Shown piece by piece: positions 7,846 to 42,381 of a stretch of 52,280 bases of DNA. Every line of letters begins with the position of its first letter. Positions within the stretch are counted from its first letter, which is position 1. This DNA is from an uncultured Lachnospiraceae bacterium (GTDB lineage Bacteria; Bacillota; Clostridia; Lachnospirales; Lachnospiraceae), in assembly GCA_902793685.1 (NCBI GenBank), contig CADBEN010000015.1, positions 1 through 52,280 of the forward strand, given 5' to 3'. Both the position numbers and the translations under genes were made by a program. The notes beneath the pieces are model-generated. The model was not told where the DNA came from, did not search any database, and saw nothing but the letters and a program-made list of their open reading frames with translations.

Positions 7846-8241
7846 TTATTCCGCCTTGGGAATGGTCTTTCCCGTTCTCTTCTCATAATCCTGCAGCGCG
7901 GACTGGATTGCCTCCTCCGCCAGCACGGAACAGTGCATCTTGTACGCGGGCAGACCGTCCAGCGCCTCCGCCACTGCCTTGTTGGTCAGTTTCATGGCAT
8001 CCGCCACCGGCTTTCCCTTGATCAGTTCCGTCGCCATGGAGCTGGAAGCGATGGCGCTGCCGCAGCCGAAGGTCTCAAACTTTACGTCCTGGACGATATC
8101 GTCCTCGATCTTCAGATACATCTTCATGATGTCGCCGCACTTCGCATTGCCGACTTCTCCGATCCCGTTCGCATCTTCGATCACACCGACATTCCGGGGA
8201 TTCCGGAAATGATCCATTACTTTCTCACTGTATAAAGCCAT
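7846..8241 (-). CDS. nifU: NifU/IscU-type Fe-S cluster scaffold
   Basis: A 131-residue scaffold on which [Fe-S] clusters are built from NifS sulfur. The three cluster-binding cysteines are present: C35 (NAKCGD), C60 (FGCGSA) and C103 (MHCSVLA); positions are within about one residue. Length and the N-terminal ALYSEKVMDHFRNPRN stretch match the short IscU-type NifU of Clostridia, which lacks the C-terminal Nfu domain. It sits 12 bp behind nifS and directly before mnmA. Its last codons form one copy of the 28-bp direct repeat. Confidence 0.95.
   Translation of the reverse strand: MALYSEKVMDHFRNPRNVGVIEDANGIGEVGNAKCGDIMKMYLKIEDDIVQDVKFETFGCGSAIASSSMATELIKGKPVADAMKLTNKAVAEALDGLPAYKMHCSVLAEEAIQSALQDYEKRTGKTIPKAE
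7858..7885. repeat. Direct repeat flanking mnmA, copy 2
   Basis: This is the 3' coding end of nifU and the partner of 6752-6779 (26/28 identical, same orientation). It also covers the region upstream of the mnmA start. Confidence 0.7.
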
Positions 8242-8253
8242 TTGACTGCCTCC

Positions 8254-9438
8254 TTAAAGAATAAACTTTGCTTTTCCGGACATCAGGTCTCTCCAGACCG
8301 GAGAGAAGCTGCGGAGATATTCCACAACATCCTTCACCGCGCGGATGATCTCGTCCACCTCTGCCTCGGTGTTCTCTTCCATGATGCTCAGCCGGAGAGA
8401 ACCGTGGGCCACATCGTGCACTCTGCCGATGGCAAGCAGGACATGGCTCGGATCCAGAGACCCGGACGTGCATGCACTGCCGGAGGATGCCTGGATCCCC
8501 TTGTCGTCCAGAAGCAGGAGCAGGGACTCTCCCTCAATTCCCTCGAAGCAGAAATTCACATTTCCCGGAAGACGCTTCTCCCGGTCTCCGTTCAGGGCGG
8601 AGTGCGGGATCTCGGAAAGGCCGTCGATCAGGCGGTTCCTGAGCTTCGTGACATACTCGGTGTTCTCCTCCATCTTCGCGCTGATCTCCTTCAGAGCCGT
8701 GGCCATGGCGCAGATGCCGGGCACATTCTCGGTGCCTGCGCGCTTTCCGCGCTCCTGTGCGCCGCCCTCGATGAGGTTCGTGATCGGAACGCCCTTTCTC
8801 ACATAGAGGAATCCCACGCCCTTCGGCCCGTGGAACTTATGGGCGGAAGAGGACAGCATGTCGATGTTGTCGTCCGCCACATTGACCGGGAGGTGTCCGA
8901 TGGCCTGGACCGCGTCCGTGTGGAAGAGGACCTTCTTTTCGCGGCAGACCGCGCCGATCTCCCGGATGGGCTGGATCGTGCCGATCTCATTATTCGCGAA
9001 CATGATGGTGACGAGACAGGTATCTTCCCGGATGGCAGCCGCGACCTCCTCCGGAAGGACGATCCCGTTTTCATGAACGTCCAGGAGGGTGATGTCGAAG
9101 CCTTCTTTTCTCAGCTTTTCCAGCGTGTGCAGCACTGCGTGATGTTCAAAGGCAGTGGAGATGATGTGCATCTTCCCCTTCTTTTTCCCAAGGGCTGCTG
9201 CGGAGAGGATCGCCTGATTGTCGGCCTCGCTTCCGCCGGAGGTGAAGATGATCTCCTGCGGCTGTGCTCCGATCACTGCCGCGACCGTTTCTCTGGCCTC
9301 TTCCAGCGCTTCCTTTGCTTTCTGTCCATGGCCGTAGAGACTGGAGGGATTCCCCCAGACCTCCTCCATCATGGCGGTCATTGTCCGGATCGCCGCCGGG
9401 CTCATCTTTGTAGTGGCGGCGTTGTCTGCGTAAATCAT
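8254..9438 (-). CDS. nifS: Cysteine desulfurase (NifS/IscS type)
   Basis: A 394-residue PLP enzyme that strips sulfur from L-cysteine and passes a persulfide to NifU and MnmA. The N-terminus reads MIYADNAATTKM, typical of the family. The PLP lysine is in SSSAHKFHGPKG, and the mobile catalytic loop cysteine is in SSGSACTSGSLDPSH, the group I arrangement. The start at 9438 is chosen because AAAGGAG lies 9 bases upstream; the frame stays open to 9501, but that extension is charged and non-conserved. It heads nifS-nifU-mnmA and is divergent from the Rrf2 regulator, with a consensus promoter at 9532-9560. Confidence 0.95.
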   Translation of the reverse strand: MIYADNAATTKMSPAAIRTMTAMMEEVWGNPSSLYGHGQKAKEALEEARETVAAVIGAQPQEIIFTSGGSEADNQAILSAAALGKKKGKMHIISTAFEHHAVLHTLEKLRKEGFDITLLDVHENGIVLPEEVAAAIREDTCLVTIMFANNEIGTIQPIREIGAVCREKKVLFHTDAVQAIGHLPVNVADDNIDMLSSSAHKFHGPKGVGFLYVRKGVPITNLIEGGAQERGKRAGTENVPGICAMATALKEISAKMEENTEYVTKLRNRLIDGLSEIPHSALNGDREKRLPGNVNFCFEGIEGESLLLLLDDKGIQASSGSACTSGSLDPSHVLLAIGRVHDVAHGSLRLSIMEENTEAEVDEIIRAVKDVVEYLRSFSPVWRDLMSGKAKFIL

Positions 9439-9531
9439 ATGGAACTGCTCCTTTCTGCGGATCTGCTCCTTTTCAGGGATCCTTTCCTTTTTGCGGATCA
9501 TTGCTGTTTTCTTTTGATCAGCTCAATGCGA

Positions 9532-9560
9532 ATTATATATACATTTACCTACTATGTCAA
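9532..9560 (-). promoter_or_regulatory. Consensus promoter of nifS-nifU-mnmA
   Basis: Read leftwards, TTGACA (9560-9555) is followed after exactly 17 bp by TATAAT (9537-9532), a perfect sigma-A promoter. The -35 box lies inside the CCTACT/ATAGG palindrome at 9547-9565, so a bound Rrf2 protein would block it. Confidence 0.8.
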
Positions 9561-9565
9561 TAGGT
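9547..9565. promoter_or_regulatory. Rrf2-type operator 1 (nifS side)
   Basis: The sequence ACCTACTATGTCAATAGGT has inverted ends (ACCTA and TAGGT), the CCTAnnn-nATAGG shape typical of Rrf2-family sites in Firmicutes. It covers the -35 of the nifS promoter. A second site lies at 9590-9605 and a 15/19 match at 19322-19340. Confidence 0.65.
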
Positions 9566-9573
9566 TTTAAGGC

Positions 9574-9605
9574 TTGATTTACCTATTCGCCTACTGTATA
9601 ATAGG
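9574..9605 (+). promoter_or_regulatory. Promoter and operator 2 of the Rrf2 regulator
   Basis: TTGATT (9574-9579) and TATAAT (9597-9602) are 17 bp apart and drive the rightward regulator gene. A second palindrome, CCTACTGTATAATAGG (9590-9605), sits over the -10, which would give autorepression. Confidence 0.7.
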
Positions 9606-9669
9606 GGAAAATCCCGGACCTGTAAAAGCTCCGGCGGTCAAAAGCAACAATGATGAAAGGCGGCGCACT

Positions 9670-10068
9670 ATGATTTCTACAAGAGGAAGGTATGCCATCC
9701 GTGTCCTGATCGATCTTGCTGAAAACGATAACGGAAAATTCATCCCGCTGAAGGACGTGGCGGAACGGCAGGGGATCTCCAAGAAATACCTTGAGATCAT
9801 CGTCAAGGACATGGTCGCCGGCGCCCTTCTGATCGGCGCCAGCGGAAAGGGCGGCGGTTACAAGCTGTGCCGGAAACCGGAACAGTACAATATCGGCGAG
9901 GTGCTGGAGCTCATGGAGGGGCCTCTGGCCCCGGTGGCCTGTCTGGCAGACTGCGCGGAACCGTGCCCGAAGGCCAAGGACTGCGCGACCCTTCCCATGT
10001 GGGCGGAATATGACAAACTGACCCACGACTTCTTCTACAGCAAACGCCTCAGCGATCTGATCCAGTAA
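9670..10068 (+). CDS. Rrf2-family regulator, IscR/CymR-like
   Basis: A 132-residue winged-helix regulator. The N-terminal MISTRGRYAIRVLIDLA and the recognition region with QGISKKYLEIIVKDM are typical of Rrf2 proteins. The C-terminal half carries four cysteines, C91, C95, C99 and C105 (CLADCAEPCPKAKDC). The C99/C105 spacing matches that of IscR cluster ligands, so an Fe-S cluster is plausible. CymR, which instead senses cysteine through CysK, is a close alternative, and cysK is the next gene. The start at 9670 follows GAAAGGCGG. Divergence from nifS and two operator-like palindromes support control of Fe-S/cysteine genes and of itself. Confidence 0.88.
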   Translation: MISTRGRYAIRVLIDLAENDNGKFIPLKDVAERQGISKKYLEIIVKDMVAGALLIGASGKGGGYKLCRKPEQYNIGEVLELMEGPLAPVACLADCAEPCPKAKDCATLPMWAEYDKLTHDFFYSKRLSDLIQ

Positions 10069-10261: not shown

Positions 10262-11194
10262 TTATTCGGTGAACAGTGCGGTGGAATAGTAGCGGTCTCC
10301 GCTGTCAGGCAGCAGCGCCACGATCACTTTTCCTTTGTTTTCAGGTCTCTTGGCCAGCTCAATGGCACCGTAGAGGGCTGCGCCGGAGGAAATACCGACG
10401 GAGATGCCCTCCTTCTTTGCCAGAAGCTTTGCAGTCTCGAAGGCTTTCTGGTTGGGCGCCTTGAAAACCTCGTCATAGACCTTGGTGTTCAGGACGTCCG
10501 GGACAAAGCCGGCGCCGATCCCCTGGATCTTATGTGCGCCGCTTCTTCCCTCGGAGAGGACCGGGGAATCCTCCGGCTCCAGCGCAACTACCTTGACCGC
10601 CGGATTCTGCTCCTTCAGATACTCTCCGGTGCCGGTGACCGTTCCGCCGGTGCCGACGCCTGCGATAAAGATATCGACCTTTCCGTCCGTGTCCTTCCAG
10701 ATCTCCGGGCCTGTCGTTGCCTTGTGGATCGCCGGGTTTGCCGGGTTTACGAACTGTCCGGGAATGAAGCTGCCCGGAATCTCCTTCGCCAGCTCTTCCG
10801 CCTTTGCGATGGCACCCTTCATGCCCTTGGCGCCTTCCGTCAGGACCAGTTCAGCGCCGTACGCCTTCAGAATGTTTCTGCGCTCCACGCTCATGGTCTC
10901 CGGCATCGTCAGGATGATCCGGTAGCCCTTAGCGGCTGCGATGGAGGCGAGGCCTATACCGGTGTTGCCCGAGGTGGGTTCAATGATGACAGATCCCTCC
11001 TTCAGAAGACCCTTAGCTTCCGCATCCTCGATCATGGCCTTCGCGATACGGTCCTTGACGCTTCCTGCAGGATTAAAGTATTCCAGCTTTACCAGGATCG
11101 TTGCCTCCAGTCCAAGCTGCTTCTCAATATTTACGACCTCGACCAGCGGGGTATTCCCGATCAGTTCTGTTGCTCCCTTATAGATCTTTGCCAT
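10262..11194 (-). CDS. cysK: Cysteine synthase A (O-acetylserine sulfhydrylase)
   Basis: A 310-residue PLP enzyme that makes L-cysteine from O-acetylserine and sulfide. The PLP lysine is K47 in NPAGSVKDR. The TSGNTG substrate loop and the [10 protein letters not shown] phosphate-binding loop are intact. It ends in the usual [12 protein letters not shown]. The gene lies 29 bp after metY on the same strand, so both probably share the LysR-type promoter at 12584-12655. The serine acetyltransferase that supplies its substrate is encoded at 23691. The stop codon lies in a CCGATAAGC/GCTTATTCGG hairpin that could end the transcript. Confidence 0.96.
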
Positions 11195-11223: not shown

Positions 11224-12504
11224 TCAGATCGCTGCGAATCCGTTCTCGAGATCCGCGATAATGTCGTCGATGTGCTCCGTCCCGATGGAGAGGCGGATGG
11301 TGTTTCTCCTGATTCCCTGGTCCAGAAGTTCCTCTTCCGACAGCTGGGAATGGGTCGTGGATGCCGGATGGATCACCAGGCTCTTCACGTCCGCCACGTT
11401 TGCCAGCAGGGAGAAGATCTTCAGATTGTCGATGAACTTCCAGGCTTCGTCCTGTCCACCCTTGACCTCAAAGGTAAAGATGGATGCGCCGCCGTTCGGG
11501 AAATACTTCTCGTAAAGCGCATGGTCCGGATGATCCGGCAGAGACGGGTGATTCACCTTTTCAACCTTCGGATGATTCTTCAGATACTCCACGACCTTCT
11601 TCGTGTTCTCCGCATGGCGCTCCAGTCTCAGGGAGAGGGTTTCCACACCCTGCAGAAGAAGGAATGCGTTGAATGGGGAGATCGTCGCTCCGGTATCTCT
11701 CAGAAGGATGGCCCGGATGTAGGTCACGAATGCAGCCGCTCCGACAGCGTCATAGAAGGAGATGCCGTGATAGCTGGGATTCGGATCAGCGATGTTCGGA
11801 TACTTCCCGCTGGCTTTCCAGTTGAACTTTCCGGATTCGACGATTATGCCGCCGAGGGTGGTGCCGTGTCCGCCGATGAACTTGGTCGCGGAATGGACTA
11901 CGATGTCCGCGCCGTGTTCAATGGGCCGGATCAGGTAAGGCGTTCCGAAGGTATTGTCGACCACCACCGGAAGTCCGTGCCTGTGGGCGATGTCGGCGAC
12001 TGCGTCAATGTCCGGGATATCGCTGTTCGGATTTCCGAGGGTCTCAAGGTAGATCGCCCGGGTGTTGTCCTGAATGGCCGCTTCCACTTCCTCCAGGTTG
12101 TGGGCATCCACGAAGGTCGTCGTGATCCCGTACTGGGGAAGGGTGTGGGCCAGAAGATTGTAGCTGCCGCCGTAGATGGTCTTCTGTGCCACGATGTGGC
12201 CGCCGTTGGCTGCCAGAGCTTCGATGGTGTAGGAGATCGCTGCCGCGCCGGAGGCAAGAGCCAGGGCTGCGCTTCCGCCTTCCAGAGCTGCGAGTCTCTT
12301 TTCCAGAACATCCTGGGTGGAGTTCGTCAGTCTTCCGTAGATATTTCCCGCATCGGCCAGGCCGAACCGGTCCGCCGCATGTTTGCTGTTGTGGAAAACA
12401 TAAGATGTGGTCTGATAGATCGGGACGGCACGCGCATCGGTCGCCGGATCCGCCTGTTCCTGTCCTACATGAAGCTGTAAGGTCTCAAATCTGTATTCGC
12501 TCAT
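11224..12504 (-). CDS. metY: O-acetylhomoserine sulfhydrylase (MetY)
   Basis: A 426-residue Cys/Met-metabolism PLP enzyme that makes homocysteine from O-acetylhomoserine and sulfide. The N-terminal [20 protein letters not shown] and the [12 protein letters not shown] strand are characteristic of MetY rather than of cystathionine lyases. The PLP lysine is in [13 protein letters not shown]. The long insertion with [19 protein letters not shown] is also typical. The start at 12504 follows a run of GGAGG; the longer open frame overlaps the regulatory block. It heads a two-gene unit with cysK. Confidence 0.94.
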
Positions 12505-12583
12505 CGTATCCTCCTCTTCTTCCTCTCTTTTCGGATAATCCCCTCTTGTCTGTTCCTCTATGTTTTTCCCTTTCTGTGGTTCT

Positions 12584-12655
12584 ATCCTACCACCTGCGTA
12601 TTTGTCTGAAAAATCGTTTGCCCTGATCGTCCGTGATAAGCGGAGGTTATTGCAG
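12584..12655 (-). promoter_or_regulatory. LysR-type activated promoter of metY-cysK
   Basis: A 48-bp block (12608-12655) matches 18158-18205 at 44 of 48 positions. Read leftwards it begins with the inverted repeat ATAACCTCCGCTTAT, centred roughly 66 bp before the predicted start of transcription, and ends at a poor -35 (TTTTCA). After 17 bp comes TAGGAT (-10). This is the classic LysR recognition and activation layout. Confidence 0.7.
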
Positions 12656-12683: not shown

Positions 12684-13427
12684 TCATTCTCTGCTGTAGG
12701 AGAAGGATTTCAGGAACTTTTTCAAGCGCTCCGTCTGAGGATGTTCAAAAAAACTCTCCGGATCACCCTCTTCAATGATCCTGCCCCCGTCGATGAATAT
12801 CATCCGGTCCGCCACTGCTCTGGCAAAGGCCATTTCATGGGTTACGATCACCATGGTCCTTCCCTCTCTGGCAAGGGCGATCACCACCTCCAGCACCTCC
12901 CGGACCATCTCGGGATCCAGCGCGGCCGTGATCTCATCCAGCAGAAGGACCTCCGGATGCATCATCAGAGCCCGCACAATGGCGACTCTCTGTTTCTGTC
13001 CTCCGGACAGCTGACGAGGGTAGCTGTCCTTTCTTGACAGAAGACCGACCCTTTCCAGCATCTCCCGCGCTTCTTCTTCCGCCTCTCTGCGATCCTTCTT
13101 TTTTACCCTGACCGGGGCCAGAGTCATATTCTGCAGCACGGTTTTATGCGGAAACAGCTCATAGCTCTGAAAGACCATTCCGATCCGCTGCCGCACCAGG
13201 TTCAGCTTTCCCCTGCAGGGATTGATCAGTTCGCCGTCCAGAAGCACCTTTCCCTCCTGAATCTCTTCCAGCGCGTTCATACACCGGAGAAAGGTGCTCT
13301 TTCCGCAGCCGGAAGGACCTACGATCACAACGACCTCGCCCTTTTTTACGCTCAGGTCCACATGGTCCAGTACCGGCATGTCCCCGTATCGTTTGGACAG
13401 ATTCTGAATTCTGAGGATTTCCTCCAT
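12684..13427 (-). CDS. Polar amino acid ABC transporter ATPase (GlnQ/TcyC type)
   Basis: A 247-residue ATPase that powers the two polar-amino-acid permeases encoded just upstream. Walker A is GPSGCGKST, followed by the Q-loop [11 protein letters not shown], signature LSGGQKQR, Walker [14 protein letters not shown] and the H-loop VTHEMAF. The family motif [14 protein letters not shown] is at the C-terminus. The ATG is one base from the upstream permease stop. It ends the transporter operon; the metY promoter follows. Substrate by context: cystine or another sulfur amino acid. Confidence 0.93.
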
Positions 13428-13428
13428 T

Positions 13429-14097
13429 TTAGTTCTCCCACCTTGTTTCCAGATATTTTGAGAGCATGCTGACAGGCCAGCAGACGGCAAAATAAAGAAG
13501 AAACACTGCCGCGTACACACCGAAAGCCGCATTGGGCGAGCTTTTCCGGTTCGCTTCAATGATCTGCTGCCCCACCTTCAGCACCTCGACGATGCCGATC
13601 ATCATTACCAGGCTGGTGGTCTTGATCATCCGGGTGATGAGGTTGATGGAAAGGGGAAGCATTCTCCGGATGATCTGGGGAATGATCACATGGATATAGG
13701 TCTGGGCGGTGGTGAGCCCCAGGGAAAGGCTGCTCTCATACTGGATCGCAGGAATACCTGTCAGCGCGCCCCGGACCTGATCCGCCATCTCCGCAGTTCC
13801 CCAGAGCGAAAAGACAATAATGGACGCTGTCTGCGCCGTCATATTGATCCCCAGCGCTTTCGTGGTGCCGAAATATACCAGGAACAGAAGCACCATCTGC
13901 GGCATGATCCGGACAAATTCCAGATAAATGCGCGTGATGACGGTGACCGCCGGTTTTTTCAATGCCATGAGACTCCCCAGAACAACGCCGGCGGCAATGC
14001 TGATCCCCACGGAGATCATGCTGATCTTCAGCGCTGTCAGAAGTCCCTGCAGCAGCCGGATCAGATTGCTTCCCTTCAACAGAACTTCAAATCCCAT
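13429..14097 (-). CDS. Polar amino acid ABC permease, second subunit
   Basis: A 222-residue HisM/TcyB-type permease with about five membrane helices. The coupling-loop EAA motif is visible as the conserved G in [21 protein letters not shown]. The early [16 protein letters not shown] and the [15 protein letters not shown] segment are family hallmarks. The start at 14097 follows the previous stop by four bases. It probably pairs with the 219-residue permease as a heterodimer. Gene order places it in the sulfur amino acid uptake operon. Confidence 0.92.
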
Positions 14098-14101
14098 CTT
14101 T

Positions 14102-14761
14102 TTATGCTCCAAACATTTTATATCGTACTTTCTTTTCGAGGAGACTTCCCAGCATGGAGACCGGAAGCAGCATAACGGCATAAAAAACCACCAGAAGAAA
14201 CAGCGCTTCCGTCGTATTATAGTAAAGTCCGATCAGATCCTTCGCCGTAAACATCAGGTCCATCAGGCTGATTGCGGAAAACACGCTGGTCTCTTTCAGG
14301 AGGAAAATCACATTGGCCACGATGGCCGGGGCGCTCAGGGAAAAAGCTTCCGGGAGAATGACGTAAAAAAACAGCTGCGTTTCCGTCATGCCGAGCGCCA
14401 GGGCACTTTCCGTCTGGGCCGGGGACACTGCATCCAGCCCGCTTCTGAAGCCTTCCGCCATATAACTGCCCCCGAGCAACCCGAGCCCCACAAAACCGCA
14501 GATCTCCGCGGGGATCCTGATTCCCGCCTTCGGAAGTCCGAAATAGATAAAAAACAGCTGCACCAGCAGCGGGGTGTTCCGGAACAGCTCCACATAGATC
14601 CCTGCGATCTGTGAAAATCCCGGGATCCGGAAATGCATGAAAAAAGCACAGACGATCCCCAGGATCAGGGCGATCCCGATCCCGATCAGGCCCGTCCTGA
14701 CGGTGAGCCGGAAGGCATCAATGTATCTTGGCAGGTAGGAATGTATGACTTCCCAGTTCAT
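14102..14761 (-). CDS. Polar amino acid ABC permease, first subunit
   Basis: A 219-residue HisM/TcyB-type permease with about five membrane helices. It has the RNTPLLVQLFFIYFGLP stretch and the EAA-loop ESALALGMTETQLFFYVILPEA. Its ATG overlaps the metI stop by 4 bp, so a methionine-type permease and a polar-amino-acid permease are translationally coupled. It would form a heterodimer with the product of the next gene. Confidence 0.92.
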   Translation of the reverse strand: MNWEVIHSYLPRYIDAFRLTVRTGLIGIGIALILGIVCAFFMHFRIPGFSQIAGIYVELFRNTPLLVQLFFIYFGLPKAGIRIPAEICGFVGLGLLGGSYMAEGFRSGLDAVSPAQTESALALGMTETQLFFYVILPEAFSLSAPAIVANVIFLLKETSVFSAISLMDLMFTAKDLIGLYYNTTEALFLLVVFYAVMLLPVSMLGSLLEKKVRYKMFGA

Positions 14762-15432
14762 CCTTTTGCTTCCTTCCGTTTCCTGTGGTCCTGCCTGACA
14801 GCGATGAAGGTTCCCGTCATCTGGATGATCTGGAAAATAACGATCAGCAGAATCACGGTAATGAACATGATGTCTGTCTGCCAGCGGTAATATCCGTATC
14901 TCACGGCGATATCTCCCAGTCCGCCCCCGCCGACGGTTCCGGACATGGCGGAGTATCCCAGAAGGAGACCGGTCGTAATGGTAAACCCGGTGATCAGGGC
15001 GGTCCTTGCCTCCGTGAGAAGTACTTTGAAGATGATCTGGACATTGTCCGCGCCCATCGACTTTGCCGCTTCAATGACACCGGCATCCACCTCGTTCAGG
15101 GCGGATTCCACCACCCTCGCGATGTAGGGTGCCGCGCAGACGACCAGCGGGACAATGGTCGCTGTGGATCCGTAGCTTTTTCCGACGATCAGCCGGGTGA
15201 AGGGGATCAGCAGAATGAGAAGGATCAGAAAGGGAATGCTGCGGATGATATTGCAGACAAAATCCCCCGCCCGGTAAATGACCCGGTTCGGGGCAAGCCC
15301 GTTCTCTCCTGTGGTATATAAAAGGATCCCCAGCGGAAGACCGGCCAGATATCCGATGATCACGGATCCGAAGGTCATATACAGGGTATCCCGGGTCCCT
15401 TCGATCAGCATGCCGATAACCTGTTCATTCAT
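14758..15432 (-). CDS. metI: Methionine ABC transporter permease MetI
   Basis: A 224-residue permease of the MetI family with about five membrane helices. Diagnostic segments are TRDTLYMTFGSVIIGYLAGLP, IIRSIPFLILLILLIPFTR and the EAA loop VIEAAKSMGADNVQIIFKVLL. GTVGGGGLGDIAVRYGYYR is the typical C-terminal loop. The ATG overlaps the metN stop by 8 bp. Two copies should pair with the upstream MetN. Confidence 0.94.
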   Translation of the reverse strand: MNEQVIGMLIEGTRDTLYMTFGSVIIGYLAGLPLGILLYTTGENGLAPNRVIYRAGDFVCNIIRSIPFLILLILLIPFTRLIVGKSYGSTATIVPLVVCAAPYIARVVESALNEVDAGVIEAAKSMGADNVQIIFKVLLTEARTALITGFTITTGLLLGYSAMSGTVGGGGLGDIAVRYGYYRWQTDIMFITVILLIVIFQIIQMTGTFIAVRQDHRKRKEAKG

Positions 15433-16252
15433 ATTTCACCTCCCCGGGGCCGCTCTTCCATGGATACCTCTTCTGTACGCTCTCCGGCGGCCTGTTTTTC
15501 CGGATCCCTTCCGGAAGCGAGGAGATCAGTTCCCGGGCAGCATCGGATCTCGGAGACGCAAAGATCTCTCCCACATCGCCCTCTTCCACCAGACGGCCGC
15601 CGTCAATAATGGCGACCTTCTGACAGATCTCCGTGACCACCGACATCTGATGCGTGATGATAAGGATGGTGATCCCCAGCTTTTCATGTATTTCCTTCAG
15701 GAGATCAAGGATCGCTTTCGTCGTCTGCGGATCCAGGGCGCTCGTCGCCTCGTCGCAAAGCAGGATCCGGGGCTCTGTCGCCAGTGCTCTGGCAATGGCG
15801 ACTCTCTGCTTCTGACCGCCGGACAGCTGGGAAGGATAAGCGGTCTCCTTGTCCTCCAGATTGACAAGCCGCAGAAGTTCCCGCGCGCGGTCCCGCGCCA
15901 CTTTTTTCTTCACCCCGGTGATCTCCAGCGGAAAGCAGATGTTTCCGATCACGTTTCTCTGCTCCAGAAGATTGAAGTTCTGGAAAATCATGCCGATCTC
16001 ACGGCGCTTTTTCCGAAGTTCCCGCTCCGTCAGGCTGCCGAGATCGACGCCGTCCACCAGAACGATCCCGTCCGACGGTTTTTCCAGATAATTGACGGAG
16101 CGGACCAATGTGCTTTTCCCTGCCCCGGACATGCCGATGATCCCGTAGATCTCCCCTTTCTCAACGGTCAGGCTGATATCCCTCAGCGCTTCCAGCGTAT
16201 GCCCGTCGACCGTAAACCGTTTGGACAGATGTCTGATCTCAATTACACTCAT
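15425..16252 (-). CDS. metN: Methionine ABC transporter ATPase MetN, short form without NIL domain
   Basis: A 275-residue ATPase. Walker A is GMSGAGKST (residues 40-48), the Q-loop FQNFNLLEQRN, the signature LSGGQKQR (143-150), and Walker B LLCDEATSALDP. EVTEICQ-like and GDVGEIFASP stretches are MetN-like. Usual MetN proteins are about 340 residues because of a C-terminal NIL domain that binds methionine and shuts the transporter. Here the chain ends about 25 residues after the ATPase fold, so that feedback site is missing. The start at 16252 is the first ATG of the conserved SVIEIRHLSK; the longer frame overlaps the upstream gene. Confidence 0.92.
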   Translation of the reverse strand: MSVIEIRHLSKRFTVDGHTLEALRDISLTVEKGEIYGIIGMSGAGKSTLVRSVNYLEKPSDGIVLVDGVDLGSLTERELRKKRREIGMIFQNFNLLEQRNVIGNICFPLEITGVKKKVARDRARELLRLVNLEDKETAYPSQLSGGQKQRVAIARALATEPRILLCDEATSALDPQTTKAILDLLKEIHEKLGITILIITHQMSVVTEICQKVAIIDGGRLVEEGDVGEIFASPRSDAARELISSLPEGIRKNRPPESVQKRYPWKSGPGEVKYE

Positions 16253-16265
16253 TTTTTCTCCGCTT

Positions 16266-16303
16266 TCAAAACGGGCGGAGGATCCGGAGATCCTCCCGCC
16301 CGT
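16266..16303 (-). terminator. Hairpin between the receptor gene and metN
   Basis: On the minus strand ACGGGCGGGAGGATC and GATCCTCCGCCCGT form a strong stem followed by TTTTG. It lies in the 58-bp gap after the binding-protein gene. Partial termination or mRNA protection here would give more receptor than membrane subunits, as is common in ABC operons. Confidence 0.6.
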
Positions 16304-16310
16304 ACCCTTC

Positions 16311-18056
16311 TTACTTTTCAAAAAACACGACTGCCCCGTCATAGGTGTCTTCAATAAACTTCCTGATCTCATCGGAGCGCAGCACCGAGACCAGCGCGCG
16401 GATCTTATCGCTGTTCTCATTTCCCTCGTAAACCGCAATGATATTGACGTAGGTCTTCGCGGCGATCGAGTCGCTTCCCTCATAGGCAATGGAATCTCTG
16501 CCCACGGAATACCCTGCCTCCAGGGCGTAGTTTCCGTTCAGGACCACGAACTCCACTTCCTTGACCACGCGGGCGACCTGCGCTGCCTCCAGTTCCACGA
16601 ATTCGATCTTATACGGATTTTCCGCAATGTCATTGACTGTGGCAGTCAGTCCTGCCCCGTCCTTCAGAGTGATGATCCCGTTGTCCTGCAGCAGCAGAAG
16701 TGCTCTCGCCTCATTGGTCGTATCATTCGGGATCGCGATATGGTCTCCTTCCGCAATGTCATCCAGACTGGCTTTGGTTCCCGGATAGATACCGAAGGGC
16801 TCATAGTGAATATCCCCCGCATCCACAAGATGGGTTCCCTGCTCATCATTAAAGCTGTTCAGGTACGGAATATGCTGCATGTAATTTGCGTCAAACTCTC
16901 CGGATTCCACCACGAGATTCGGCTGGACATAATCTTCAAACTCCACGACATCCAGATTGTAGTCGTATTCTTTGAGGATCTCCGCTGCCTTTGCCAAGAT
17001 CTCCGCGTGAGGAACCGGGGATGCCGCGATCTTAATGGTCTCTCCGTTGCCCGGGACGATCTCCGCTGCCTCCTCCGCCGCAGCGCTTCCGGCCGCAGCC
17101 GCTTCGCCGGCCTTTCCGCCTTCCACCACAAGGGTCTCCCTGTAATCCGCTCCGTAGGTCTCCGTCAGCGTCGCGTCGTAGGCCGCGTGGAAGAACTGTT
17201 CCTCTCCAAGCTTCACGATCTCCTCATTCAGCCATTCCAGCAGGGAAGCGTTCCCCTTGGAGACCGCCGGGGCAATGGTATCCTGGCTTCCCAGGGAGGG
17301 AATGCCCACCACATAGCCCGGATTTTCGATGGCGTACGCGATCACCTCGGTATTGTCATTTGCCCATGCAGCGCCTGTTCCGTTCTCAAAGGAAGTCTTG
17401 GCCGATGCATAGGTATCGAATTTCTGAAGCCTGATCTCCGGATTGTTCTTTTCAAGATAGGTCTCCGCCGTCGTTCCTGAGATTACGATCACCTGGTCAT
17501 CGGCCGTGATCTGGGAGAGATCCGTGATCACCCGATCCTCCGGAGACACCACGCCGAGGGCCACATTCATATAGGGAAGGGCAAAATCGACTTTCTCGGC
17601 TCTTTCCTCAGTTACGGTGAAGTTCGCGAGGATAATGTCGACCTTCCCGGTCTCAAGATATTCAACTCTGTTTGCTGCTTCCGTGGAAACATAATTGATC
17701 TCAACGCCCAGATCCTTTCCGATCCTTTCGGCAAAGTACACATCATATCCCTGATAAACGCCGTTTTCATCCACATATCCAAAGGGGTTCTTGTCTGAGA
17801 AAACACCGATGTTTACGGTACCGCTCTTCTGGATCTCCTCCAGTGTCCGGTAGATTTTTCCGGCATCCTCCGCCTTTGTTTCCTGCGAACTCTGCTCCTG
17901 CGCCTGCTGCTCTGTCTGAGCCTGTTCCTGCGTCTTAGCCTGTTCCTGTGTCTGAGGAGCCGCCTCCTTTGCGGATCCGCATCCCGTAAGAGCCATTGCG
18001 GCAATTCCTGCGGCCAGCAGACCATTCAGCAGCCAAACCTGATTTTTCTTTTTCAT
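16311..18056 (-). CDS. Two-receptor lipoprotein: SBP_bac_3 domain fused to NlpA/MetQ domain
   Basis: A 581-residue lipoprotein holding two unrelated ABC receptor domains. The signal peptide ends at the lipobox LTGC (C26). A Q/E-rich tether covers 31-62. Residues about 67-312 are a family 3 polar amino acid receptor (IGVFSDKNPFGYVDENG, YDVYFAERIG, LPYMNVALGVV). An Ala/Glu-rich linker spans about 313-336. Residues about 339-581 are a MetQ/NlpA receptor (ASPVPHAEILAKAAEIL, YMQHIPYLNSFN, IPNDTTNEARALLLL, LNGNYALEAG). The following genes encode membrane parts of both transporter types. The start at 18056 follows GGAGGG. A fusion by sequencing error is unlikely because one frame is open through both domains. 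Confidence 0.93.
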   Translation of the reverse strand: MKKKNQVWLLNGLLAAGIAAMALTGCGSAKEAAPQTQEQAKTQEQAQTEQQAQEQSSQETKAEDAGKIYRTLEEIQKSGTVNIGVFSDKNPFGYVDENGVYQGYDVYFAERIGKDLGVEINYVSTEAANRVEYLETGKVDIILANFTVTEERAEKVDFALPYMNVALGVVSPEDRVITDLSQITADDQVIVISGTTAETYLEKNNPEIRLQKFDTYASAKTSFENGTGAAWANDNTEVIAYAIENPGYVVGIPSLGSQDTIAPAVSKGNASLLEWLNEEIVKLGEEQFFHAAYDATLTETYGADYRETLVVEGGKAGEAAAAGSAAAEEAAEIVPGNGETIKIAASPVPHAEILAKAAEILKEYDYNLDVVEFEDYVQPNLVVESGEFDANYMQHIPYLNSFNDEQGTHLVDAGDIHYEPFGIYPGTKASLDDIAEGDHIAIPNDTTNEARALLLLQDNGIITLKDGAGLTATVNDIAENPYKIEFVELEAAQVARVVKEVEFVVLNGNYALEAGYSVGRDSIAYEGSDSIAAKTYVNIIAVYEGNENSDKIRALVSVLRSDEIRKFIEDTYDGAVVFFEK

Positions 18057-18133
18057 ATTTTCCCTCCTGCTCCTGCCTGTGCCGGAATTTTGTAATCCTG
18101 ATCCTGCCGGCGTCAGCAATTTTTGTGATTCCT

Positions 18134-18205
18134 ATCTTAACATCCACCGTTTTTCCCGAAAAATCGTTTGCTCTGATCGTCCGTGAAAAGCAGCGGTTAT
18201 TGCAG
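18134..18205 (-). promoter_or_regulatory. LysR-type activated promoter of the transporter operon
   Basis: This holds the second copy of the 48-bp block (18158-18205) and the same promoter architecture as metY: poor -35 TTTTCG (18162-18157), 17 bp, TAAGAT -10 (18139-18134). The distance from block to start codon is 102 bp here and 104 bp at metY. The lysR gene ends about 140 bp upstream. Confidence 0.7.
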
Positions 18206-18342: not shown

Positions 18343-19254
18343 TCAGTCTTCCAGTTCCTTGAATTTCAGCAGTTCTTCCACATATATTTCCCCGTATGCG
18401 GACATCGCGCTGCCTTTTCTGACGATGTAGCCGATGATCAGCGGATCCTCTTCCTTCAGCTTGATCGAGACCAGCCCCTGCAGGAGTGCATCGTCCCCGG
18501 AAAGCATCCCGGAACCGATGGAATAACCGTGGAGCTCTGCGATCAGCTCCATCGTGGTGGCCCGGTCGTCCGACTTGATCAGCTTTTTGAAATCATAGTC
18601 GGCCATGGCTTCTTCCGGGAGATAAAAGTTGCTGTCGTCGCTCTGGTCAAACAGGATGCATGGATAGTCCGACAGCTCCTCAATCGAGATCTCGGTCCTC
18701 TCCGCAAAGGGATGTCCTTTCCATACGTAGGCATAGGTCTCTCTCTGCATGAGCGGGGTAAACTCCAGCCCGTATTCCCGGATCAGTTTCTTGATGATCT
18801 TCTCGCTGGCGCCCGAAAAGGAGATGATCCCGACCTCGCTTTTCAGGCTCCGGACGTCTTCCAGGACCTCCATGGTCTTCGTCTCATGGATGGAAAACAC
18901 ATATTTTTCCGGATCGCTTCTCCGGATCACCTCTGAGAATGCCCGGATGGCGATGTTGTAATGCTGCGCGGACACGGAAAAGTGCTCTTTTCCGCGGTCC
19001 CTGGACAGATACCGGTCCTCCAGGATCTCATACTGGGCGGCAGCCTTTTTCGCATAGTTCAGGAACTCTCTTCCACTGTCCGTGACGGTGATCCCCTTAT
19101 TGGTCCGCTCAAAGATCAGGATCCCCAGTTCTTCCTCCAGCTCCTTGATACTGGCGGAAAGCGCAGGCTGGGAAATGAAAAGCTTCGTCGCCGCTTCCCG
19201 GATCGAGGAAGAACGCGCGACCTCCAGGACGTATTTGATCTGTGTGATATTCAT
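18343..19254 (-). CDS. LysR-family regulator of the sulfur amino acid genes
   Basis: A 303-residue LysR-type regulator. The N-terminal winged helix covers residues 1-60, with the helix-turn-helix SIREAATKLFISQPALSASI followed by ELEEELGILIFERTNKG. The rest is the two-lobed effector domain, the part that would sense a sulfur metabolite by analogy with CysB/CmbR-type regulators. The ATG at 19254 has GGAGG ten bases upstream; a TTG at 19260 is too close to that site. Its own promoter overlaps a copy of the Rrf2-type site. Twin LysR-like sites upstream of metY and of the transporter operon make it the likely activator of both. Confidence 0.9.
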   Translation of the reverse strand: MNITQIKYVLEVARSSSIREAATKLFISQPALSASIKELEEELGILIFERTNKGITVTDSGREFLNYAKKAAAQYEILEDRYLSRDRGKEHFSVSAQHYNIAIRAFSEVIRRSDPEKYVFSIHETKTMEVLEDVRSLKSEVGIISFSGASEKIIKKLIREYGLEFTPLMQRETYAYVWKGHPFAERTEISIEELSDYPCILFDQSDDSNFYLPEEAMADYDFKKLIKSDDRATTMELIAELHGYSIGSGMLSGDDALLQGLVSIKLKEEDPLIIGYIVRKGSAMSAYGEIYVEELLKFKELED

Positions 19255-23690: not shown

Positions 23691-24677
23691 TCAGAACCAG
23701 GTCGCGTCCGCGTCCAGCTTGCCCTCTCCGTCATTCACATGCTCTTCTTCGCCGGGACGGGTGACCATGAGATGCATCTCCTGGTTTTTGATGCTGACAC
23801 GGGCGCCGGGCGGAACCGGAGTCGTAATGAAGCAGTTGCCTCCGATGACGGCGCCTTTTCCGATGATGGTATCTCCGCCGAGGATCGACGCACCGGAATA
23901 GATGGTGCAGTTGTCCTCGATGGTGGGATGCCGCCGCACGCTCTTAAGACGCTGTCCGCCGCGGGTGGACAGCGCGCCGAGGGTGACACCCTGATACAGC
24001 TTCACATGCTCGCCGATCAGAGTCGTCTCTCCGATGACAATACCGGTACCGTGGTCAATGAAGAAGTACTTTCCGATGGTCGCTCCCGGGTTGATGTCGA
24101 TACCGGTGATGCTGTGGGCATACTCGGTCATGATGCGCGGAAGCAGCGGGATCTTCAGTTCATAAAGCTCATGGGCGATGCGGTACACAATGATCGCGTA
24201 CATACCCGGGTAGCAGATGATGACCTCGTCCTTCGAGAAGGCCGCCGGGTCGCCGTCATACTCCGCCTGCACGTCGGTATCCAGGTACTCGCGGATCCGG
24301 GGGATGGTCTCCAGAAACCGGAAGGTCAGGTCCTCCGCCTCTTCGTTGATCTCCTGCATGATCTCCGGAGTGTCTACTTCTTTTCCTTCGTTCTGCCGCT
24401 GATAGCGCAGAACGATGGCGATCTGCTTGATCAGATTGTAGACGGTGTCCTCGAGAAGCATGCTGACGTTATTCCGGACCGTATATACCCGGAAGGTCTT
24501 GTTCCGGAAATATCCGGGGAAAATGATGCGCTGAAGCTTGTTCAGCACCTCGATCACGGCCTCCTTATCCGGATGGAAAAAGGTCTTGATCTCGTCAATG
24601 GTGCGGCCTCCCCGGTAATCCTGCATGAGCATTTCCAGGGTCCCGTGAATCCTCTGGTTTCTTTCTTCGGGTGTCAC
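23691..24677 (-). CDS. Serine O-acetyltransferase (EpsC/CysE type)
   Basis: Makes O-acetylserine, the substrate of the CysK encoded at 10262. It is 328 residues, with an all-helical N-terminal domain to about residue 185 and then a left-handed beta-helix of hexapeptide repeats. The catalytic His/Asp region is FIDHGTGIVIGE, followed by VKLYQGVTLGALS, HPTIEDNCTIYSGASILGG and IGKGAVIGGN. This long form matches the EpsC-like enzymes of Clostridia. The start is GTG at 24677, two bases after the upstream stop, with AAGGAGGAGG before it. The C-terminal tail is acidic and ends in TWF; whether it binds CysK is unknown. Confidence 0.9.
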   Translation of the reverse strand: MTPEERNQRIHGTLEMLMQDYRGGRTIDEIKTFFHPDKEAVIEVLNKLQRIIFPGYFRNKTFRVYTVRNNVSMLLEDTVYNLIKQIAIVLRYQRQNEGKEVDTPEIMQEINEEAEDLTFRFLETIPRIREYLDTDVQAEYDGDPAAFSKDEVIICYPGMYAIIVYRIAHELYELKIPLLPRIMTEYAHSITGIDINPGATIGKYFFIDHGTGIVIGETTLIGEHVKLYQGVTLGALSTRGGQRLKSVRRHPTIEDNCTIYSGASILGGDTIIGKGAVIGGNCFITTPVPPGARVSIKNQEMHLMVTRPGEEEHVNDGEGKLDADATWF

Positions 24678-40758: not shown

Positions 40759-42381
40759 TCAGATCGTCAGATTCTCTTCCGCAATGTTGCAGACCATCAG
40801 CGCCGCGCGGTCCCAGGCCAGGAACTCCTCGATCATGCCCGGGAGCTGCTCGTTGGAGTTGCACTCCACATAGTCCATATTAAATGCGCCGGCAATGCAG
40901 TCAAAGCGCGGGTAGTCGTGAAGACGCACGCCGGAATACCTGCGTCCGCAGTTTTTCTCCTGATACTCGCGGACCAGGCCGAGATAACGGTTCCTGAGCA
41001 CCAGGACCTTGACCGCCACCTTGCACACGGCCGCGGTGGCCAGCTCGTTCATCGTCATCTGGAAGGCGCCGTCGCCGCAGACTGCCACCACCTGGGTATT
41101 CGGCGCGCAGATCTTGGCGCCGATGGCTGCGGGGATCGAGTAGCCCATGGTCCCCATGCCGCCGGTCGTCAGGAAACGGCCGTTCTTCATCACATAGTTG
41201 TCCGCAGACCAGAGCTGGTTCTGGCCGACGTCGGCCACGTAGATGGCGTCGTCGTCCATCTTCTCGGAAAGGGTCTGCACGAGAAGCATGGGGTTCACCA
41301 GACGGTTGCTCCACTTCCGCTGATCCACGGTGCTCTTCTTGATCTTCTCAAGTTCCCCGATCCAGCTGGAGGTGTCAATGTCGATCTTCGAATCAATCAG
41401 CGTGCGGAAGATATTCTTCACGTCGCCGACCAGCGGGAGTGTCGGGCCGAGGTTCTTGCCGATCTCCGCAGTGTCGATGTCGATATGGATGACCTTCAGG
41501 CTCCGTTCCAGGTTCTCCGGCTTCGGGACCGCACGGTCCGCGATCCGCGCGCCCACGACGATCAGAAGATCGCTGTTGGCGACAGCCCGGTTCGCATAAG
41601 GCTTTCCGTTGTTCCCCAGCATGCCGAAATACAGTGGGTGCGCCTTCGGCAGGACACCGATGCCCATCATGGTATGAACCAGCGGGATCTGGAACTTTTC
41701 GCAGAATTCCCGGACCACCGGCTCGCCGTTGCCCAGGATCACGCCGCCGCCTGCGACCAGCAGCGGTTTCTGTGCCTCGTTGATGGCCGCGATGACCTTG
41801 GCCATCTGCTGCGCGTTTCCCTTGGTATTCGGACGGTATCCGCGGATATTTACCTCCTCCGGATACACAAACTCCTTCCGCAGCTGTGCCATCTGGACAT
41901 CCCTCGGAATATCGATCAGCACCGGGCCCTGACGACCGGTGGAGGCGATGTAGAAAGCTTCCTTGAAGACCCGCGGGATATCGTCCGCGTTCTTCACCAG
42001 ATAGCTGTATTTCACGAAGGATTTCGTGGCGCCGCGCATGTCCGCCTCCTGGAACACGTCCTTGCCCAGGAGATGCGAATCCACCTGTCCGGTGATGGCG
42101 ATGATCGGGATACTGTCGGCATAAGCCGTAGCCAGTGCTGTGATGAGGTTTGTCGCGCCGGGGCCGGAGGAAGTCACGCATACGGCAGCCCTGCGGCTGA
42201 TGCGGGCGTACCCGCTGGCTTCGTGACCTGCGTTCTGTTCCTGTCTCGAAAGAATATGCTCGATCCGGCGGCTGTCGTACAGCGCGTCGTAAAACGGAGC
42301 GATCGCCACCCCCGGATAACCGAAGATCCGGGAGATCCCCTCCGCCTCAAGACATTTCACCATTGCCTGGGCACCATTCAT
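40759..42381 (-). CDS. ilvB: Acetolactate synthase large subunit
   Basis: The catalytic subunit of acetohydroxyacid synthase, first common step of valine, leucine and isoleucine synthesis. It is 540 residues with three thiamine-enzyme domains. The catalytic Glu is in RQEQNAGHEASGYAR, the central domain has the GNNGKPYANRAV region, and the TPP-Mg motif starts CGDGAFQMTMNELAT. The start at 42381 (MNGAQAM) follows AAAGGAG. It is slightly shorter than the roughly 560-570 residues of many homologues. The leader contains hairpin copy C and a terminator-like stem. Confidence 0.95.
   Translation of the reverse strand: MNGAQAMVKCLEAEGISRIFGYPGVAIAPFYDALYDSRRIEHILSRQEQNAGHEASGYARISRRAAVCVTSSGPGATNLITALATAYADSIPIIAITGQVDSHLLGKDVFQEADMRGATKSFVKYSYLVKNADDIPRVFKEAFYIASTGRQGPVLIDIPRDVQMAQLRKEFVYPEEVNIRGYRPNTKGNAQQMAKVIAAINEAQKPLLVAGGGVILGNGEPVVREFCEKFQIPLVHTMMGIGVLPKAHPLYFGMLGNNGKPYANRAVANSDLLIVVGARIADRAVPKPENLERSLKVIHIDIDTAEIGKNLGPTLPLVGDVKNIFRTLIDSKIDIDTSSWIGELEKIKKSTVDQRKWSNRLVNPMLLVQTLSEKMDDDAIYVADVGQNQLWSADNYVMKNGRFLTTGGMGTMGYSIPAAIGAKICAPNTQVVAVCGDGAFQMTMNELATAAVCKVAVKVLVLRNRYLGLVREYQEKNCGRRYSGVRLHDYPRFDCIAGAFNMDYVECNSNEQLPGMIEEFLAWDRAALMVCNIAEENLTI

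Follow-up and report, generated by a model that had tools for sequence, protein, structure and literature searches.

The locus raises the question of whether a single lipoprotein can act as the receptor of two different ABC importers. ABC importers are usually described with one receptor, or several receptors, per transporter; the gene studied here encodes one receptor chain with two heads of different families and lies beside the genes of two transporters. It is located at positions 16311-18056 on the minus strand of the window, by which we mean the whole stretch of DNA that was analysed (52,280 nucleotides from an uncultured Lachnospiraceae bacterium), and it encodes 581 amino acids, with the ATG at 18056 and the stop codon at 16311-16313. 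The original prediction described a single open frame with one lipobox, a Q/E-rich tether, two full domains and an Ala-rich linker, and this description was confirmed. A signal peptide with a lipobox (residues 1-26, 17979-18056) is followed by the Q/E-rich tether (residues 27-69, 17850-17978), an SBP_bac_3 domain closest to L-cysteine receptors (residues about 70-313, 17118-17849), an Ala/Glu/Gly-rich linker (residues about 314-338, 17043-17117) and a MetQ/NlpA domain (residues about 339-581, 16314-17042). The lipobox cysteine after the signal peptide, C26, is invariant in 43 aligned fusions, as in a lipoprotein, and the product is predicted to be anchored to the membrane by lipid.

The two domains were examined by the Pfam search that the original prediction had called for, and both scored far above their cut-offs. 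SBP_bac_3 (PF00497) matched residues 82-291 (2e-27, 96 bits against a cut-off of 26.4), and Lipoprotein_9 (PF03180) matched residues 341-577 (4.5e-79, 265.4 bits against a cut-off of 27). The NCBIfam model TIGR00363 (MetQ/NlpA) gave 163.5 bits, below its cut-off of 228.85; judged by sequence, the MetQ half is a relative of these MetQ/NlpA proteins that lies outside the named subfamily model. No permease domain was found in the chain by Pfam, the permeases being separate genes. The AlphaFold2 model, based on the alignment of the 43 fusions, showed two folded halves (mean pLDDT 76.5, pTM 0.46), with pLDDT below 50 at residues 1-65, which include most of the tether, at residues 310-330 and at residues 377-381. 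These stretches and the pTM of 0.46 are as would be expected for two heads carried on flexible segments. The linker has a median length of 26 residues (13-42) and no cysteine over 89 distinct fusions, and is about 26 residues long in the window. Between the lipid cysteine and the start of the first domain, the tether spans a median of 23 residues (16-44) in the 87 readable fusions; that of the window has 44.

An error of assembly or sequencing that joined two genes would produce such a frame, and this explanation is extremely improbable. A similarity scan (genome_contigs) gave 580 matching stretches, of which the best 80 were kept as related loci, and both halves lie in one frame in all 80, although this number gives no frequency because the ranking of the scan favours fusions. 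These loci come from other assemblies and include records without a metagenome-assembly label, namely Butyrivibrio sp. NC2002 and YAB3001 and the Lachnospiraceae bacteria G41, YSD2013 and XBB2008. The join was therefore ruled out as an artefact, for which nothing was found in favour, and homologues in which the two halves are always separate open reading frames, which would have spoken against the original prediction, are not what the scan returned.

The survey of the architecture across Lachnospiraceae gave a frequency of another kind. Of 200 genomes drawn evenly from the family, that of the window among them, 109 had a match at E <= 1e-30, and at least 13 (window genome included) had the fusion among the matches listed; the remaining matches listed contain one half each and are up to about 75% identical. 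At the genus level the fusion was found in two of seven genomes (G000 and G1020). Among 391 genomes drawn from the class, it was complete in G180, G340 and the genome of the window and partial in G562; G340 and G562 belong to another family, f62. PF03180 itself was found in 213 of 398 genomes of the phylum; the part of these matches that is listed speaks neither for nor against fusions outside the class. Long-frame MetQ genes in G558, G773 and G993 were considered as further fusions and rejected; they are MetQs preceded by a chance open stretch. The two-headed receptor is widespread in Lachnospiraceae, a family of gut and rumen bacteria.

The genes behind the fusion, all on the minus strand, encode two importers. 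The fusion is followed by metN (15425-16252, a MetN-like ATPase of 275 amino acids), metI (14758-15432, permease), two SBP3-type permeases (A, EhuD-like, 14102-14761; B, GlnP-like, 13429-14097) and a GlnQ/TcyN-like ATPase (12684-13427). After a gap of 179 nt come metY (11224-12504), for an O-acetylhomoserine/O-acetylserine sulfhydrylase, and cysK (10262-11194), and a LysR-type regulator gene (18343-19254) lies upstream of the fusion. MetI reached 218.3 bits in PRK10782 (cut-off 212). The metN and metI genes overlap by 8 nt, and the start of the first SBP3-type permease gene runs 4 nt into the end of metI; at the gene level, the coupling of the two transporters is therefore close. The MetN scored 344.6 bits against the 499.7 of the model with a C-terminal NIL domain (TIGR02314), and no NIL match was found in it; The MetN of many relatives retains NIL, among them that of the fused locus L042 and that of L118. 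Its tail has 32 residues, as against about 94 in most fused loci, and short tails recur in several fused lineages. The NIL domain of E. coli MetN mediates inhibition by internal methionine. If it acts as in E. coli, this inhibition would be gone in the window's MetN.

The ligands were approached through the nearest solved relatives. The SBP_bac_3 half is nearest by sequence to 2YJP and 1XT8 (about 234 bits each, E ~1e-68), as expected of a CjaA-type receptor. Their titles name a cysteine-binding protein of Campylobacter jejuni (1XT8) and an L-cysteine receptor of Neisseria gonorrhoeae (2YJP); by fold, 2YJP and 1XT8 rank fourth and seventh for the whole protein, behind MetQ-type chains. The cystine receptor 2YLN gave 47.5 bits with this half, and the NCBIfam cystine model PRK11260 gave 74 bits, below its cut-off of 312. 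According to PMC4178425, CjaA binds cysteine and its role in import was unproven; PMC7170509 treats 2YJP as an L-cysteine receptor and shows that cysteine and cystine are both ligands of E. coli FliY, so that the first half may accept cystine as well. The first half therefore probably binds L-cysteine, perhaps cystine also, by the evidence of these relatives.

With 4IB2, a Ruminococcus gnavus lipoprotein, the MetQ half shares 76% identity. The methionine contacts of Neisseria MetQ, as listed in PMC6739813, were transferred onto the fusion by spacing and correspond to Y376, M393, H395, Y398, R451, N509 and N538. The six contacts besides M393 show full conservation across the 89 fused rows and the 31 stand-alone rows, two gaps aside. 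At the position of the aromatic contact (F98 in Neisseria), F is present in 49 of the 78 fusions outside the group without metNI, in all 11 distinct fusions of that group and in 30 of the 31 stand-alone MetQs; the other 29 of the 78 have M (17), V (10), S (1) or I (1). The ligand may therefore have shifted in some members of the family, of which the fusion of the window (M393) is one. By the conserved contacts, the second half would probably bind methionine. The original prediction had proposed joint capture of cystine and methionine. Its methionine part finds support in the six of seven contacts kept, and its cystine part calls for correction, since the nearest solved relatives are L-cysteine receptors, which makes cysteine with methionine likelier than cystine with methionine.

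The arrangement of the loci bears on which receptor serves which transporter. Among the best 80 of the 580 matching stretches, 62 loci have MetI and both permeases, 11 have the permeases without MetI (one of these, L108, has a metN fragment; L100, which is cut by the contig end, also lacks MetI) and seven end too early for the transporter content to be read. The window's gene order is the commonest (56 of these 80); the fusion lies between the two transporters in L093 and L105, which are among the 62, and in G340 and G1020. The fusion is the sole PF03180 protein (E <= 1e-15) in 35 of the 38 genomes in which metNI adjoins it, G607, G610 and G627 having further MetQs, and it is the only PF03180 match in the window's genome. 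In the 12 genomes without metNI beside the fusion, 11 have a second, stand-alone MetQ and a metI elsewhere, and in 10 of these 11 the stand-alone metQ lies in the same fetched stretch as the distant metI; the MetQ half is therefore dispensable for MetNI there. In the twelfth, G594, a metagenome assembly, no close metI was found in the genome, and at L108 (about 2275-2520) metN stops after about 80 codons behind an intact fusion, with metI missing. A MetNI encoded in the cluster thus has, in most cases, no recognisable receptor besides the fused MetQ, and a MetNI encoded elsewhere has a MetQ of its own, although the genomes counted are related and the counts are not independent.

A further case is G195, in which the fusion adjoins metNI and the operon of the cysteine-type permease is found on a different contig; the 13 kb read there showed no match to the SBP3 half. 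This case is suggestive only, because G195 has six SBP_bac_3 matches in all and other such proteins could serve the orphan permease. The same genome has a 973-residue open frame (G195:C2:249881-251698) with three SBP_bac_3 matches in a row. In G627 there are two fused genes (L199 and L200), whose halves are 88/83% and 81/77% identical to those of the window, and a third MetQ.

In two split genomes of the same genus (G1018 and G072), each receptor lies beside its own transporter, as permease-permease-ATPase-receptor at one site and metN-metI-metQ at another. These operons show the starting material for the fusion.

The number of origins was analysed with trees of the two halves. FastTree trees of all distinct rows required at least six changes between fused and stand-alone states for the SBP3 halves (118 rows) and at least four for the MetQ halves (120 rows); some of the stand-alone rows branch within fused groups and may be splits. 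A single origin of the fused SBP3 halves was rejected by the AU test in 38 chosen rows (p 1.1e-36), comprising 15 of the 84 fused and 23 of the 34 stand-alone rows, the 11 omitted including five that nest among fused ones (L015-L018 and L116). The SBP3 half of G195 belongs to another SBP3 lineage. In a first test of the MetQ halves (16 fused and 21 stand-alone rows), a single origin had p 0.0225 when all fused rows were included; with the f62 type removed, p was 0.094 and a single origin was not rejected. For the second test, G1020 was added together with nine stand-alone MetQs closely related to that of the f62 type, and a single origin was rejected (p 6.1e-63; 39 rows, 14 fused and 25 stand-alone). 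Stand-alone MetQs of families f21 (69%) and f53 (64%) come closest to the MetQ half of G340, and the MetQ halves of G340, G562 and G1020 form one group with no more than 43-45% identity to that of the window. Locus L130 (G562), with only a partial SBP3 half in frame, entered the MetQ trees but not the SBP3 trees. On these trees a separate MetQ lineage of the f62 type is firm, and a separation of the G195 type from the main type in the MetQ halves is not. The placement of G1020 in the genus is unsure, because its genome is 82% complete and the fusion is on a 7.8-kb contig.

The three pairings of domain lineages could stem from independent fusions or from an exchange of domains after fusion; the two-headed form is retained under either route, and the fusion has probably been selected repeatedly. 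A stand-alone SBP3 receptor, L132 (G542, 7870-8955), falls among the fused rows at an open fork and has a 36-residue Ala/Ser-rich tail; it is possible that it is a later split of the fusion.

The best reading of these data, and one which we consider likely, is a two-headed, lipid-anchored sulfur amino acid receptor that feeds two transporters. The SBP_bac_3 half would bind L-cysteine (perhaps cystine) and pass the ligand to the permease pair and its ATPase (14761-12684), the MetQ half would bind methionine and pass it to MetNI (16252-14758), and the flexible tether and the 26-residue linker would let each half reach its own transporter in the membrane. We infer the ligands, the docking on both transporters and the transport from sequence and gene context. 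Within these terms, the original proposal of one tethered protein for two transporters finds support in the presence of both in the array, at 62 of the 80 kept loci (best 80 of 580), and in the fusion being the sole PF03180 protein in 35 of 38 genomes. More tentatively, the receptor might bridge or shuttle between both importers, possibly in one assembly with fixed stoichiometry, and might have been selected as such at least three separate times.

It might be argued that both halves feed one transporter as in GlnPQ, the cysteine-type permease pair taking both ligands. Tandem domains on one permease provide a precedent (PMC8025302), and in the 11 of the 80 kept loci (best 80 of 580) with a permease and without MetI, the MetQ contacts are kept in all 11 distinct rows. 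We regard this as very unlikely, since metI is kept in the cluster at 62 of these 80 loci, MetNI would otherwise be without a MetQ in 35 of the 38 genomes, and MetQ and MetNI are an established pair. The MetQ half might instead bind another sulfur compound or act as a sensor, no longer being a methionine receptor. The loss of F at the aromatic contact in 29 of the 78 fusions outside the group without metNI is consistent with such a change; the six other mapped contacts are kept, however, and metNI is retained beside the fusion with no other MetQ in 35 of the 38 genomes, which makes a changed role rather improbable.

The possibility that the fusion is a neutral by-product of joined operons, with no gain over separate receptors, is unlikely. 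Many relatives keep separate genes, and in the split genomes of the genus the cysteine-type operon ends with the receptor gene; joining such an operon to one in which metQ is first would yield the arrangement of G340 and G1020. Against a neutral origin stand the three different pairings of domain lineages and the persistence of the fusion with one transporter elsewhere, its contact residues being largely kept. Natural controls are available for the preferred reading of one receptor for two transporters, namely genomes with separate receptors, a fusion beside one transporter only and an orphan permease elsewhere. The coupling of different importers through a receptor is therefore directly testable.

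Known systems were compared with the fusion. Both receptor domains of GlnPQ are of the SBP_bac_3 type, and those of OpuA are fused to the permease. According to PMC8025302 and PMC8092236, GlnPQ of Lactococcus and relatives carries tandem substrate-binding domains on one permease. The likeness lies in two receptor domains per chain, a short flexible linker (14 residues in GlnPQ, 26 in the fusion) and differing ligand preferences; the GlnPQ domains, however, are fused to the permease of one transporter, whereas the fusion, in which no receptor domain is joined to a permease, is a separate lipoprotein of two families with two transporters encoded. The gene context favours two transporters and not one permease for both domains. 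OpuA of Lactococcus is reported (PMC2861598 and PMC11065425) to have two substrate-binding domains per transporter, both for glycine betaine, on one transporter.

The fusion resembles MetNIQ in a MetI above the NCBIfam cut-off, a MetQ domain, six of seven mapped contacts and a predicted lipid anchor (PMC8416018 and PMC6739813); it differs in that the fused MetQ is anchored through the other head and that the window's MetN lacks NIL. Lipid anchoring matters for the contact between MetQ and MetNI, as PMC8416018 states. CjaA/Cj0982 (1XT8) and 2YJP are the closest solved proteins to the first half by sequence and among the best by fold, but their solved chains match only this half. Searches of open-licence papers for fused or shared receptors brought up no description of a receptor whose heads come from two families and serve two importers, which agrees with the original statement that no described example was known and is no proof of novelty.

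A strong predicted RNA hairpin lies between the fusion and metN (16271-16303, minus strand; -27.5 kcal/mol for a 64-nt stretch, z -3.4). A hairpin of -15 kcal/mol or lower occurs within 110 nt after the fusion in 66 of 83 fusions, compared with 11 of 83 shuffled controls. Among the 76 fusions for which the hairpin reaches -10 kcal/mol or better, only 13 show at least four T within the 8 bases that follow, so that most of these hairpins are unlike typical terminators. In a promoter and terminator scan of the window, the minus-strand terminator matches lie inside genes and the hairpin at 16271-16303 is absent from them. A hairpin after the receptor gene in such operons fits an excess of receptor over the membrane parts, and by analogy the receptor may here be made in such excess.

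A 74-nt element upstream of the fusion operon (18132-18205) contains a GTGATAAG-N5-CTTATCAC-like site (12/16), and a second copy, 80% identical, lies upstream of metY-cysK (12582-12655; site 13/16). No third copy of comparable length was found in the genome, the other matches being of 14-41 nt with E of 0.2 or more, and no Rfam family scored at the gathering threshold in the window. The GTGATAAG-N5-CTTATCAC inverted repeat is perfect in L033, and the window's 28-nt element (up to five mismatches) was found upstream of other fusions in L033 only, copies of the window locus aside. As a LysR-type site, the motif is supported in part: it scored at least 13/16 in 11 of the 83 regions upstream of fusions, 13 being also the best that 20 simple shuffles per region reached, and the mean was 10.3 against 9.7; an unrelated site of score 12 occurs at window position 40981. 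The element shared by the fusion operon and metY-cysK and the neighbouring LysR gene suggest that import and synthesis of sulfur amino acids may be under joint control. The two-headed receptor points to a common control of the supply of cysteine and methionine in anaerobes of the gut and rumen.

Other sulfur genes are clustered in this window. A CysE-like serine O-acetyltransferase gene (23691-24677; 159 bits against a cut-off of 211) lies about 6 kb upstream of the operon, and genes for a cysteine desulfurase and a NifU-type scaffold, with an Rrf2 regulator, are found at 7846-10068.
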